From Erythrobacter sp. (GTDB taxonomy: Bacteria > Pseudomonadota > Alphaproteobacteria > Sphingomonadales > Sphingomonadaceae), in the NCBI RefSeq assembly GCF_011765465.1, contig NZ_CP050265.1:1922001-1986000 (forward strand): a stretch of DNA of 64,000 nt. The letters are read 5' to 3'. This document shows, piece by piece, positions 32,173 to 43,361 of the stretch. Below the pieces are notes generated by a model. The model was not told the DNA's origin and did not search any database. It worked only from the letters and a program-made list of their open reading frames with translations. The position numbers and the translations under genes are program-made. Each line of letters begins with the position of its first letter. Position 1 is the first letter of the stretch.

Positions 32173-33258
32173 ATGGATAGGAAGAAGCTGGTTCTGCTGC
32201 TCGGCGCGCTGATCATCGCGGTCGGCACGGCTTTCGCCGCGCGCAGTATGTTCGCCGGAAACGCCGCGCCCGATGCGACCGCCGCGGTCCCGACCGGGCC
32301 CAAGGTGCTCGTCGCGCAGCGGGCGCTGCCTGCGGGCACGATCGTCACCGCCGATGCGCTGGGCTACCAGCAGTGGCCCGAAGAGCTCGTGCAGGACGCC
32401 TATTTCATCGACGGCGAAAGCGACGTGAACCAGCTGCTCGGCACGGTCGTGCGCTATCCCGTCACCGCGGGCGAGCCGGTCACGCAGGGCTCGCTGGTGA
32501 GCCCGGGCGACCGCGGCTTCCTTGCAGCGGCGCTGGGTCCGGGGATGCGCGCGGTGACCGTGCCCGTCTCGGCCCGCACCGGCGTTGCCGGGTTCGTCTT
32601 CCCGGGCGACAGGGTCGACCTCGTCCTCACCCAGTCAGTCGAGGGCGAAGGCCGCCCGCTCAAGGCCGCCGAGACCGTGCTGCGCAACCTGCGCGTGCTC
32701 GCCACCGACCAGTCGACCGAACAGGTCGCCGACGAACAGGGCAAGACCGTGGTCCGCGCCTTCCGCACGGTGACGCTCGAGGTGACGCCCAAGATCGCCG
32801 AGAAGATCGCCGTCGCCCAGACCGTCGGCACGCTCAGCCTCGTGCTGCGCTCGATCGCGGACAACCAGGCCGAGCTCGAACGCGCCATCGCCGCGGGCGA
32901 TGTCACCATCCCCGAGGACGCGACTCCCGAAGAGGAAGAGCGCATCCTGCGCGCCGCGATGGGCCGCCCGATCGACAGCGGCACGACCTACGCCACCGGC
33001 GGCGACGTGTCGCGCTTCCAGCGCAAGTCGATCCCGCCGCAGGACGACGGCAAGCCGAAATACACCCCGCCCGCGCCCGGCGTCTCGGCCAAGGTGGACG
33101 GCGCGCCCGTCAACAAGGGCCCGAGCGTGCGCGTCACCCGCGGCAAGGCGACCACCGAAGTCCCCGTGAGCGGCGGCTTCGTGAGCACCGGCGCCCGCGG
33201 GTCGCGCGGGGGCGACAACGACGAGCCGGCCGAACTCGGCTCGCTGACGGTGCGCTGA
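32173..33258 (+). CDS. cpaB: Flp pilus assembly protein CpaB/RcpC
   Basis: Periplasmic tad component anchored by an N-terminal membrane helix (KLVLLLGALIIAVGTAFAA). An SAF domain follows (VLVAQRALPAGTIVTADAL), then the RcpC domain (MRAVTVPVSARTGVAGFVFPGDRVD). It has 361 residues. The C-terminal 80 residues are low-complexity and Pro/Gly-rich. It stabilises the CpaC secretin in related systems. Confidence 0.93.
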   Translation: MDRKKLVLLLGALIIAVGTAFAARSMFAGNAAPDATAAVPTGPKVLVAQRALPAGTIVTADALGYQQWPEELVQDAYFIDGESDVNQLLGTVVRYPVTAGEPVTQGSLVSPGDRGFLAAALGPGMRAVTVPVSARTGVAGFVFPGDRVDLVLTQSVEGEGRPLKAAETVLRNLRVLATDQSTEQVADEQGKTVVRAFRTVTLEVTPKIAEKIAVAQTVGTLSLVLRSIADNQAELERAIAAGDVTIPEDATPEEEERILRAAMGRPIDSGTTYATGGDVSRFQRKSIPPQDDGKPKYTPPAPGVSAKVDGAPVNKGPSVRVTRGKATTEVPVSGGFVSTGARGSRGGDNDEPAELGSLTVR

Positions 33259-33365
33259 GGAGAGCGATAATGACCGGGGCACACAACACACAGCTTACCG
33301 CAAGCTGCGCGGCGCAAGGGGCCGAAACCATGCGCGCACAGCCGACCATCCGAGGGGGTCAGACA

Positions 33366-34988
33366 ATGAAACGCCGCCTGAAAGCGAAACTGCTGCTTGC
33401 CAGCCTGGCGCTCGCGCCGACATTCGCGGCCTTTCCCGCGACCACCGCGACCGCCCAGCAGGTGGTCAAGCCGAGCGAGGAGATCGTCCTGTCGATCGGC
33501 CGCGGCGAGCTTGTCACCGTGCCCGGCACGATGACCGATGTCTTCGTCGCCAATGAAAACGTCGCTGACGTCCAGATCAAGTCGCAGCGCCAGCTCTACG
33601 TCTTCGGACGCGCCGGCGGCGAGACCACGATCTACGCCAGCAATGCGCGCGGCGATGTCATCTTCTCGGCCAATATCCGGGTCGGCAACAACATCTCGAG
33701 CATCGACCAGATGCTCGCGCTCGCCATGCCCGATGCCCAGGTGAACGTGGCGACGATGGGGACCAACACGGTCCTTCTGACCGGCACGGTCGCCGCGCCC
33801 GAGGACGCCGCCGAGGCCGAGCGTCTCGTCCAGGCGTTCCTCGGCGAGGACGCCAATGTCATCAGCCGGATGAAGACCGCGACCCCGCTTCAGGTCAACC
33901 TGCAGGTCAAGTTCGCCGAAGTCAGCCGCAGCCTCGTGCGCGAGATCGGCGGCAACCTGACGACCTTCGACGGGTCGAGCGGTTTCCGCTTCGGCATCGG
34001 CACGGGCCGCCAGCTCGGCGGCACGGAAACGTGGTCGCCGCAGGGTCCGCTCGGCGTCGGCAACGACGTCGCGCAGTCGGCCTTCATCCTGCCCGACGGC
34101 ACGCAGATCCCGGGTCCGGCGGTCGATTCGAACGATTCGACCACGCTGTCGGGCCTCGGCCGCCTGTTCGGGATCGACACGTTGGGCGCGCTCGACCTGT
34201 CCGAACGCCTCGGCCTCATCACCACGATCTCGCAGCCCAACCTCACCGCGCTGTCGGGCGAGACCGCGACCTTCCTCGCGGGCGGCGAATTCCCGATCCC
34301 GATCGCGCAGGGGCTGGGCAACGTGGCGATCCAGTTCCGCAATTTCGGGGTCAGCCTGTCCTACACGCCGACCGTGCTTTCCAATGGCCGCATCTCGCTG
34401 CGCGTCCGCCCGGAAGTCTCCGAGCTTTCGACCCAGGGCTCGGTCACGCTGAACGGCTTCCAGGTTCCCGCGCTCACCATCCGCCGCACCGAAACGACGG
34501 TCGAACTGGGTTCGGGCCAGAGCTTCATGATCGCAGGGCTCATGAGCACGAATTCGCAGAACGCGCTCGACAAGGCGCCGGGCCTCGGCGACGTGCCGAT
34601 CCTCGGCAACCTCTTCCGCAGCCGGGAATTCCGCCGCGGCGAGAGCGAGCTGGTGATCGTCGTCACGCCCTATCTCGTGAAGCCCGTGGACGCGAAGGAC
34701 ATCGCGCTTCCGACCGACGGCTATCGCTCGGCGAACGAGCTCGAACAGCTCATAGCCTACCAGAACCATGCCGGCGTCTCGGGCGCCGAGCGTCCGAAGC
34801 CGACCGCTGCGGTCGGGGACGAGGCGCCCGCGCCCGACATCAGCAATGCCGACCCGGCCGCGATCGTGCCCAACAACGTGCCGAAGCTTCCCAAGCCCAA
34901 GCGGGCCGAGGACCGCTCGCGCGGGCGGACCGACCGCACCGCCGACGTCGATAAGGGTGGGGCGGCCGCGCCCGGCTTCAGCCTGTAA
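33366..34988 (+). CDS. cpaC: Outer-membrane secretin CpaC/RcpA
   Basis: Forms the outer-membrane channel for the Flp pilus. It has 540 residues: signal peptide (MKRRLKAKLLLASLALAPTF, then ATAQQ), N-terminal pilus-formation domain (VLSIGRGELVTVPG), a BON-like segment, and the secretin domain (VNLQVKFAEVSRSLVREIG, SGETATFLAGGEFPIPIAQ, LGDVPILGNLFRS). The Pro/Lys-rich C-terminus is unusual. The start at ATG 33366 is chosen for the signal peptide and a GAGGGGG Shine-Dalgarno; ATG 33270 is also in frame. Confidence 0.94.
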   Translation: MKRRLKAKLLLASLALAPTFAAFPATTATAQQVVKPSEEIVLSIGRGELVTVPGTMTDVFVANENVADVQIKSQRQLYVFGRAGGETTIYASNARGDVIFSANIRVGNNISSIDQMLALAMPDAQVNVATMGTNTVLLTGTVAAPEDAAEAERLVQAFLGEDANVISRMKTATPLQVNLQVKFAEVSRSLVREIGGNLTTFDGSSGFRFGIGTGRQLGGTETWSPQGPLGVGNDVAQSAFILPDGTQIPGPAVDSNDSTTLSGLGRLFGIDTLGALDLSERLGLITTISQPNLTALSGETATFLAGGEFPIPIAQGLGNVAIQFRNFGVSLSYTPTVLSNGRISLRVRPEVSELSTQGSVTLNGFQVPALTIRRTETTVELGSGQSFMIAGLMSTNSQNALDKAPGLGDVPILGNLFRSREFRRGESELVIVVTPYLVKPVDAKDIALPTDGYRSANELEQLIAYQNHAGVSGAERPKPTAAVGDEAPAPDISNADPAAIVPNNVPKLPKPKRAEDRSRGRTDRTADVDKGGAAAPGFSL

Positions 34989-41910: not shown

Positions 41911-42010
41911 GGCCTTCCCCCTGCGACGCGACCCGAGGGGCTTGAGCCTAGCCACCCCCGGCCCGTCTGACAAGCCGCGCGCGGCAGGCGGAAAGGCCGC
42001 GGCCCAAGGG

Positions 42011-42027
42011 TTGGGAAAATTTCCCAA
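42011..42027. promoter_or_regulatory. Perfect palindrome, candidate enhancer-binding site
   Basis: TTGGGAAA-A-TTTCCCAA, 8-bp arms with one central base. Its end lies 75 bases upstream of the -24 GG of the sigma-54 promoter, a usual distance for an activator site. Confidence 0.6.
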
Positions 42028-42100
42028 ACTTGCGCCTCGCCCCCTTGGCCGCCAGCGGCGCTCCCCCGCGCAAAGCCCGGATTTCCGCCATTTCGCGAGT

Positions 42101-42117
42101 TTGGCACGGCTCCTGCA
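42101..42117 (+). promoter_or_regulatory. Sigma-54 (RpoN) promoter of the 37-residue microgene
   Basis: The sequence TTGGCACGGCTCCTGCA matches the YTGGCACGrNNNTTGCW consensus at all but one defined position, with exact GG-N10-GC spacing between -24 and -12. The predicted transcript would start near 42128, giving a leader of about 50 bases before the ATG. Confidence 0.75.
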
Positions 42118-42179
42118 GCATATCGGGCAGGAAGCGGGAACGACCCGCAAACGCCACGAAAGACCAAGGAGACCGACCA

Positions 42180-42293
42180 ATGTTCAACGCCGACACCAGC
42201 CGCAACCTCTTCGCCGCCGCCGTCTCGCTCGGCATCAGCGCGATCCTCTTCGCCTATGCGATCGTCCCCGCCAGCCCGAGCCTGATCGCCTGA
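42180..42293 (+). CDS. 37-residue single-span membrane microprotein
   Basis: Tiny protein with a polar N-terminus (MFNADTSRN) and one hydrophobic helix of about 20 residues (LFAAAVSLGISAILFAYAIV) ending PASPSLIA. A strong Shine-Dalgarno, AAGGAGACCGACCA, precedes the ATG. The gene sits alone with its own sigma-54-like promoter upstream and a strong terminator downstream, which argues strongly that it is real and separately controlled. I do not recognise a function. Alternative: the transcript is a small RNA and the ORF is secondary, but the Shine-Dalgarno and hydrophobic pattern favour translation. Confidence 0.75.
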   Translation: MFNADTSRNLFAAAVSLGISAILFAYAIVPASPSLIA

Positions 42294-42348
42294 CCATCCC
42301 CCGCGGGTCCGGACCATCCCCCAACTCCGCACAACCGGACCCTTCGAC

Positions 42349-42380
42349 AACCCCCGCCGCGTCCCCCGGCGGGGGTTTTT
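42349..42380 (+). terminator. Intrinsic terminator of the microgene
   Basis: 11-bp perfect stem AACCCCCGCCG / CGGCGGGGGTT with a 7-base loop, then Ts. Four bases before the stop of the convergent membrane-protein gene. Confidence 0.92.
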
Positions 42381-42383
42381 CGT

Positions 42384-43361
42384 TCAGCGGGCCGGCATCC
42401 GTTGCGGCGCGCTCTCCGGCCGGGCTGAGGCAGCGGGCGGCTCGATCCGCCAGAAGCTCGCAGCGTGGACGAAGAACAGCGCCGCGATCAGGAATTCGAG
42501 CAATTCGTCGTCGTAATGCGGGAGGTGGTCCGACCAGTTGATCGGCAGCGGCGTCGGCGTGCCGAGCGCAAGGCCGGTGACCGCATAGCAGCCCGCCGCG
42601 AAGGCGTAGAGCGCGGCCGAGCGCACTGGCGCGACCGGGAATTCCAGCGCGTCGAGCAGCCGCCGCAGCGCGGGCGCATGGCGATGCGCCAGCGGCAGGA
42701 CGAACAGCAGCGCCGCCGTCACCGCGAGGCCGGGATAGACGAACAGCGAATTCGAATAGACGTTGTGCAGCGTGAATTCGCCCTGCACGTTGACCGCCGC
42801 GAGGTCATCCGGCGTGCCGAAGCCCAGCAGGCGCTGGCCCCAGCTGATCTCCTCCCCGCCGACGAAGACGAACAGCGCGGCGAGCCCGGCGAGCCACAAG
42901 CGCAGCCTCGCGCGCCCGCGCGCGCGCCCGGCGAGCGCGAGGCACGCCCCCGCCGCGCCGAAATAGAGCAGCGCCGAGCCGTATTCGAACGGCCCGTCTT
43001 CCTCGAACAATACGGTGAACGTGCGCGCATCGGCGATCGCGAGAATGGTGAGCCCCGCACCGGCGAGCGCCACGGCGAGGCCGCTCATGCGCTCGAAAGG
43101 TCCGGCTTCGGCGCGCCGGGCGAGCGGGGCGGCCTGCCCCTCCTCGAGCCGCCCTGCGATCCGCTCGGCAAGAACCGCGAGCCGCCGCCGCGCCAGCCAT
43201 GCGCCCGAAAGGCCGAGCACGAGGCTCCAGATCGCGGCCTGGCCGAGCAGCAGCTTGACCCCGCTCGCTTCGGTCAGCCTCGCCATCACGTCCTGCAGCC
43301 ACAGCCCGGCAGCAAGCCCGGCGAGGACCACGACCATGTCCGTGACGATGTTACGCATCAT
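42384..43361 (-). CDS. Multi-pass membrane protein of unknown function
   Basis: 325-residue inner-membrane protein with about seven hydrophobic helices. A central motif, GGEEISWGQRLLGFGTP, recurs in a group of uncharacterised bacterial membrane proteins I recognise only by this signature. PINWSDHLPHYDDELLEF near the C-terminus is a second polar patch. Start at ATG 43361 (or the adjacent ATG 43358). No functional inference is made. Confidence 0.82.
   Translation of the reverse strand: MMRNIVTDMVVVLAGLAAGLWLQDVMARLTEASGVKLLLGQAAIWSLVLGLSGAWLARRRLAVLAERIAGRLEEGQAAPLARRAEAGPFERMSGLAVALAGAGLTILAIADARTFTVLFEEDGPFEYGSALLYFGAAGACLALAGRARGRARLRLWLAGLAALFVFVGGEEISWGQRLLGFGTPDDLAAVNVQGEFTLHNVYSNSLFVYPGLAVTAALLFVLPLAHRHAPALRRLLDALEFPVAPVRSAALYAFAAGCYAVTGLALGTPTPLPINWSDHLPHYDDELLEFLIAALFFVHAASFWRIEPPAASARPESAPQRMPAR

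Follow-up and report, generated by a model that had tools for sequence, protein, structure and literature searches.

The phage-shock response has been described best in enterobacteria; there PspG is the sole extra target of PspF, with a role that is still unclear (PMC9239133). In the Psp logic, PspA holds PspF until membrane damage releases it, and enhancer-bound PspF then acts on sigma-54 polymerase (PMC3709507, PMC9239133). The closest described counterpart of the locus reported here is pspG of Escherichia coli and Yersinia, which lies apart from the pspA operon, is controlled by PspF and sigma-54 and encodes a small inner-membrane protein; however, the protein at our locus has one helix and matches no Pfam or NCBIfam model, whereas two helices are predicted for PspG (PMC2763126). 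PspD is also a small protein, from the psp operon itself, but it is reported solely with gammaproteobacterial operons (PMC11237479), while the micro-ORFs described below show no profile match, lead their operon and are found in sphingomonads. The PspF, PspA, PspB and PspC orthologues, the divergent pspF and the enhancer-plus-sigma-54 layout resemble the known pspFABC locus, which differs in having neither the extra unnamed micro-ORF before pspA nor the second, dispersed promoter class that precedes micro-ORFs with or without a short PspC. Finally, E. coli YohP and other stress-induced microproteins share with the protein studied here a length of <50 residues, a single helix and a link to stress (PMC12719787), although their regulation is different and the likeness is one without demonstrated sequence relation. 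The micro-ORFs are undescribed in the main text of broad Psp surveys, from which sphingomonads are absent too, and in the open-access literature searched, an absence that is weak evidence.

A predicted sigma-54 cassette around a 37-residue reading frame

The window, that is, the whole 64-kb stretch analysed, covers positions 1,922,001-1,986,000 of a 3.30-Mb single-contig Erythrobacter genome. An earlier note had claimed a perfect 17-bp palindrome at 42011, a sigma-54 box with exact GG-N10-GC spacing, an AAGGAG Shine-Dalgarno, a single-helix 37-residue ORF at 42180 and a strong terminator at 42349, and each of these parts was found where it had been placed:

42004-42007 (+): CCAA, a column set conserved in 25 aligned promoters, directly 5' of the palindrome and part of the extended enhancer
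42011-42027 (+): enhancer (upstream activating sequence), perfect palindrome TTGGGAAA-A-TTTCCCAA, predicted PspF site
42028-42101 (+): spacer from the enhancer to the -24 element, 74 bp, length conserved
42100-42117 (+): predicted sigma-54 -24/-12 promoter TTTGGCACGGCTCCTGCA
42166-42171 (+): Shine-Dalgarno AAGGAG, retained in the sister species
42180-42293 (+): 37-residue single-helix membrane microprotein MFNADTSRNLFAAAVSLGISAILFAYAIVPASPSLIA, with the ATG at 42180 and the stop ending at 42293
42349-42384 (+): intrinsic terminator, with a stem of 11 pairs (42349-42377) and a T run

The palindrome TTGGGAAAATTTCCCAA (42011-42027) has 8-bp arms, a 1-bp centre and 0 mismatches; it is the sole A/T-rich palindrome of its size in the window, and none of this quality is expected according to 100 shuffles. 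The box TGGCACGGCTCCTGC (42102-42116) has GG at 42103-4 and GC at 42115-6 with N10 between them, together with TGGCAC and TGC at -24/-12, as in a sigma-54 promoter. TGGCAC-N5-YTGC has one occurrence in the 64 kb with both strands counted, and this occurrence is the box; its -12 element is CTGC, the consensus being TTGC. Across the 25 aligned promoters the box is invariant except for one C-to-T within TGGCAC, and GGATTTCCGCCATTTCGCGAG, immediately 5' of the -24 element, is conserved as well. A second conserved stretch lies just 5' of the -24 element at window positions 42079-42099 (GGATTTCCGCCATT here versus GAATGGCGGAATTCCGCC in relatives) and may be another protein site. No IHF site was seen by eye between enhancer and promoter. 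Transcription is predicted from the promoter class to start at about 42127, and because the intrinsic terminator (fold z-score -4.1) follows at 42349-42384, the window gene is taken to be monocistronic.

The same promoter elsewhere in the genome

The earlier note had proposed a genome scan for the site near other RpoN promoters; an unbiased search for the palindrome returned one twin. At <=2 mismatches the palindrome occurs at 2 places in the 3.3-Mb genome, the window's included, and the reversed-palindrome control gave 0 matches in the same search. The twin, at 407,841, precedes a sigma-54 box by 74 bp (palindrome end to TGGCAC), as in the window, and the two promoters are alignable along their entire length. 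It heads three tandem micro-ORF paralogues, which were also recovered by an independent protein search, and then the gene of a 69-residue PspC-domain protein (Pfam 66 bits, cut-off 25).

We further used a promoter profile (R2) trained on 14 promoters of another genus, with the sites of this genome held out; an earlier profile (R1) had included the three genomic sites and was left out as evidence. R2 has exactly three matches in the genome, namely the recF-linked operon (1.8e-18), the window (2.5e-9) and the pspF-pspA intergenic region (7.9e-6), and the next-best match has an E of ~1. Because the profile never saw this genome, this result is a real prediction. The intergenic site ATAGTGAAATTTCCCAA is a half-converted palindrome with an identical 74-bp spacer, as would be expected if the window gene belonged to the PspF regulon. 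Counting against such membership, this pspA site matches the window palindrome at 13/17 positions, and the window palindrome matches E. coli UAS I at 10/17. By their sequences, the three promoters make up one predicted regulon.

PspF as the predicted activator

Six strong sigma-54 activators are encoded in the genome. One is PspF (TIGR02974, 478 bits against a cut-off of 443.6); it shares 49% identity with the E. coli protein, the two HTH regions being aligned, and its gene is divergent from a 60-residue micro-ORF, pspA, pspB and pspC. A true PrsR is encoded as well (676 bits, cut-off 503; locus 1177780). Both PrsR and a PspF type had been named as candidates in the earlier note. If the activator were PrsR, which controls PEP-CTERM/exopolysaccharide functions, the microprotein would serve envelope polysaccharide export; however, the surroundings of prsR contain no such promoter, the three sites of the genome being those of the two micro-ORF loci and of pspF-pspA, and in other species it is pspA or pspC operons that follow the site. 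Because the sites precede pspA/pspC operons and occupy the pspF-pspA intergenic region, thus tracking the Psp genes, PrsR is rejected as the activator and an export role under its control is extremely improbable. The PspF half of the proposal held up, and PspF control of the microgene is strongly supported by sequence comparison.

PspF is present in 382 of the 398 genomes of the order and is therefore uninformative as a correlate of the micro-ORF. In one genome (G267, locus L226) the micro-ORF operon and a good enhancer are kept while pspF and pspA were not found in the draft assembly; as a counter-example of a site without PspF this case is weakened since PspA is missing too, and an assembly gap or a joint loss would also explain it.

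The first gene of the pspA operon (L029 4722-4904, - strand) is a different 60-residue single-helix micro-ORF, which has no match in Pfam or NCBIfam. Most sphingomonad loci have a counterpart of ~50-63 residues ahead of pspA, and [ILV]A is the usual ending there too.

Conservation of the enhancer, spacer and box

To follow the arrangement across genomes, 298 genomes of the order were searched with the spacer free to vary from 60 to 90 bp. Nine of them matched, with 11 sites, and 9 of the 11 have the same spacing as the window; of the remaining sites, one is 1 bp longer and one, before a micro-ORF-pspA-pspB operon, is 10 bp shorter. The distance from E. coli UAS I to its -24 element is 64 bp, equal to this shorter pspA-operon spacer. 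Spacers of 64 and 74 bp are one helical turn apart, which is suggestive, but not proof, of helical phasing. A larger scan covered 84,980 species genomes with a degenerate enhancer-N74-box pattern; because it fixed the spacing at 74, the spacing argument rests on the free-spacer search.

The large scan yielded at least 119 loci, nearly all in sphingomonads, and the named relatives bearing the cassette among the matches listed are Erythrobacter, Qipengyuania, Altererythrobacter, Novosphingobium and kin. Among the matches listed, 107 of the 111 scored precede an ORF of <=75 codons, and the other 4 precede pspA directly. Following the micro-ORF, again among the matches listed, pspA comes in 46 of the 107 loci and pspC without pspA in 37, as assigned by short sequence motifs within 1.6 kb downstream. 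Since the arrangement recurs across a bacterial family, the cassette is far beyond chance. The comparison of ORF, promoter and palindrome with related genomes that the earlier note had proposed turned out favourably, as did the genome scan, and conservation in many genomes supports the earlier idea of a membrane microprotein expressed from a sigma-54 promoter that has an enhancer of its own. On the other hand, the cassette had been called unusual, which it is not: sphingomonads carry many such micro-ORFs, and the window copy is a relocated paralogue.

Far outside Alphaproteobacteria, in three Latescibacterota metagenome bins (L097, L151 and L156), an enhancer, 74 bp and a sigma-54 promoter are also found directly before a PspA-like gene.

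A family of membrane microproteins

Matches to the micro-ORF profile are found in 104 of the 398 genomes of the order and in 40 of the 41 of the genus. Pairwise comparison of 106 distinct coding sequences splits the differences 2172:1335:4830 over codon positions 1, 2 and 3, and the median dN/dS of these family sequences is 0.23, a descriptive value as the sequences are related to each other. A chance ORF or a non-coding leader is ruled out by the dN/dS together with conservation throughout the family. By these results, the micro-ORFs are real proteins under purifying selection family-wide. The same selection bears on whether the orphan is chiefly a second PspF site that titrates PspF from pspA, with the protein secondary. 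In E. coli, basal pspA transcription goes up when the pspG promoter is removed but not when the gene itself is (PMC3709507), and the pspA site of this genome is less symmetrical than the perfect palindrome of the window; nevertheless, a pure decoy needs no purifying selection of the kind seen in the family, and we regard a chiefly titrating role as unlikely. Titration by the extra enhancer may still contribute beside a functional protein, by analogy with E. coli.

AlphaFold gives the window protein a single helix at residues 3-31 (mean pLDDT 79), in line with the one helix claimed earlier. In 103 non-redundant first ORFs of both micro-ORF kinds among the matches listed, 158 K/R residues lie before the helix and 8 after it, and because of this imbalance the microproteins are predicted to be inserted N-in/C-out. 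The family has a near-invariant core, A-x-A-I-[VIL]-P-[AG]-[ST]-P. With a positive N-terminus, a hydrophobic stretch next and this nearly invariant A-x-A followed by I-[VIL]-P-[AG]-[ST]-P, the protein could be a precursor that signal peptidase cuts after A-x-A (AYA before IVPASPSLIA), releasing a periplasmic signal peptide of membrane stress; yet the hydrophobic stretch of ~19-20 residues is typical of an anchor and A-x-A is missing or shifted in the pspA-linked micro-ORFs, so that such processing seems hardly probable.

The C-terminal residue is Ala in 98 of the 103 first ORFs and the penultimate one I, L or V in 92 of the 103 among the matches listed, whereas [ILV]A ends just 1.7% of 350 long ORFs from the same loci, likewise among the matches listed; the [ILV]-Ala end lies at variable distance from the helix. 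The pspC-linked, pspA-leading and orphan groups barely align in sequence. It is conceivable, if rather unlikely, that the PspF-driven microproteins of sphingomonads share a free periplasmic C-terminus that a PDZ protease or receptor of Prc/Deg type recognises in the periplasm. If true, this would link PspF to periplasmic proteolysis, and we know of no Psp system with such a link.

None of the Pfam and NCBIfam models matches the micro-ORF family of the window, and because of this the microprotein is neither PspG nor PspD; membership in either was excluded, the window protein also having one helix where PspG wants two. The orphan is best read as analogous, not homologous, to enterobacterial pspG, with a likeness of function and not of descent. 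The micro-ORF class is a widespread, unnamed, sphingomonad addition to the phage-shock response.

Origin of the orphan locus

The usual micro-ORF locus is flanked by the divergent recF on one side and an SDR gene on the other, and a short pspC lies downstream of the micro-ORF. In contrast, the window copy sits between genes for a 362-residue and a 325-residue protein, neither of which has a Pfam match. The downstream 325-residue neighbour is found in only 2 of the 61 genus genomes, this one included, and the idea that this locus has conserved synteny in the genus was accordingly rejected. In the second of these genomes, that of a sister species, a micro-ORF with its Shine-Dalgarno and a drifted promoter lies beside the 325-residue gene; its enhancer has drifted to TTGGGAAAAATCCCCGA and its -12 element is GTGC, which counts against the PspF reading. 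Because the neighbour occurs in 2 of 61 genomes, the locus is young though the micro-ORF family is old. From these comparisons, the window gene is a monocistronic copy relocated from the recF-linked micro-ORF-pspC operon, a young relocation that has survived at least one speciation. Stand-alone copies of the micro-ORF without pspC also occur in other genomes.

The 69-residue PspC-domain protein (L007 6466-6675) is much shorter than the PspC of the main operon, and across the family the recF-linked micro-ORF operon usually ends in such a short PspC-domain gene. About 7 kb upstream of the microgene, a Tad-type pilus cluster has its secretin gene (PF00263, E 8e-40; window positions 32373-34988), and the sister genome likewise carries a TadC-like gene near the orphan (L225 6322-6945). 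Secretin mislocalisation is a classic Psp trigger in enterobacteria, and the closeness of the Tad secretin to the microgene may or may not be meaningful.

Proposed mechanism and significance

Taken as a whole, it is very probable from the sequence comparisons that the cassette is an orphan PspF-regulon gene, induced by membrane stress, with a likely Psp effector as its product. Inner-membrane stress would free PspF from PspA, and the freed PspF would bind the 42011 palindrome and, across the 74-bp spacer, open the sigma-54 form of RNA polymerase at the -24/-12 box. The gene would thus be silent at rest and induced upon loss of membrane integrity. The short transcript would give a 37-residue protein in the inner membrane, N-in/C-out, with the short periplasmic tail IVPASPSLIA, which would join the products of the pspF/micro-ORF-pspABC locus and of the second operon with its three micro-ORFs and PspC-like protein. 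The microprotein is most likely a Psp effector by which the membrane is stabilised or PspA/PspC tuned, the part ascribed to PspG in enterobacteria. E. coli YohP is one of the tiny membrane proteins that are induced by stress and lower membrane potential (PMC12719787), and a small hydrophobic toxin-like protein could in principle do so or slow metabolism under stress; we consider this quite improbable for a gene that is conserved on the chromosome and whose operons with pspC and pspA are long-lived, and for which an unsystematic look saw no antisense partner.

With its three promoters in a single genome, the predicted regulon is clean and open to test, and the palindrome, 74 bp and sigma-54 box provide a simple sequence handle by which others can be found. 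The [ILV]-Ala kept at the C-terminus points to a definite partner more than to a generic hydrophobic peptide. More broadly, a large alphaproteobacterial group places PspF-type promoters of near-fixed geometry before tiny membrane proteins that are under selection and unnamed in family libraries.
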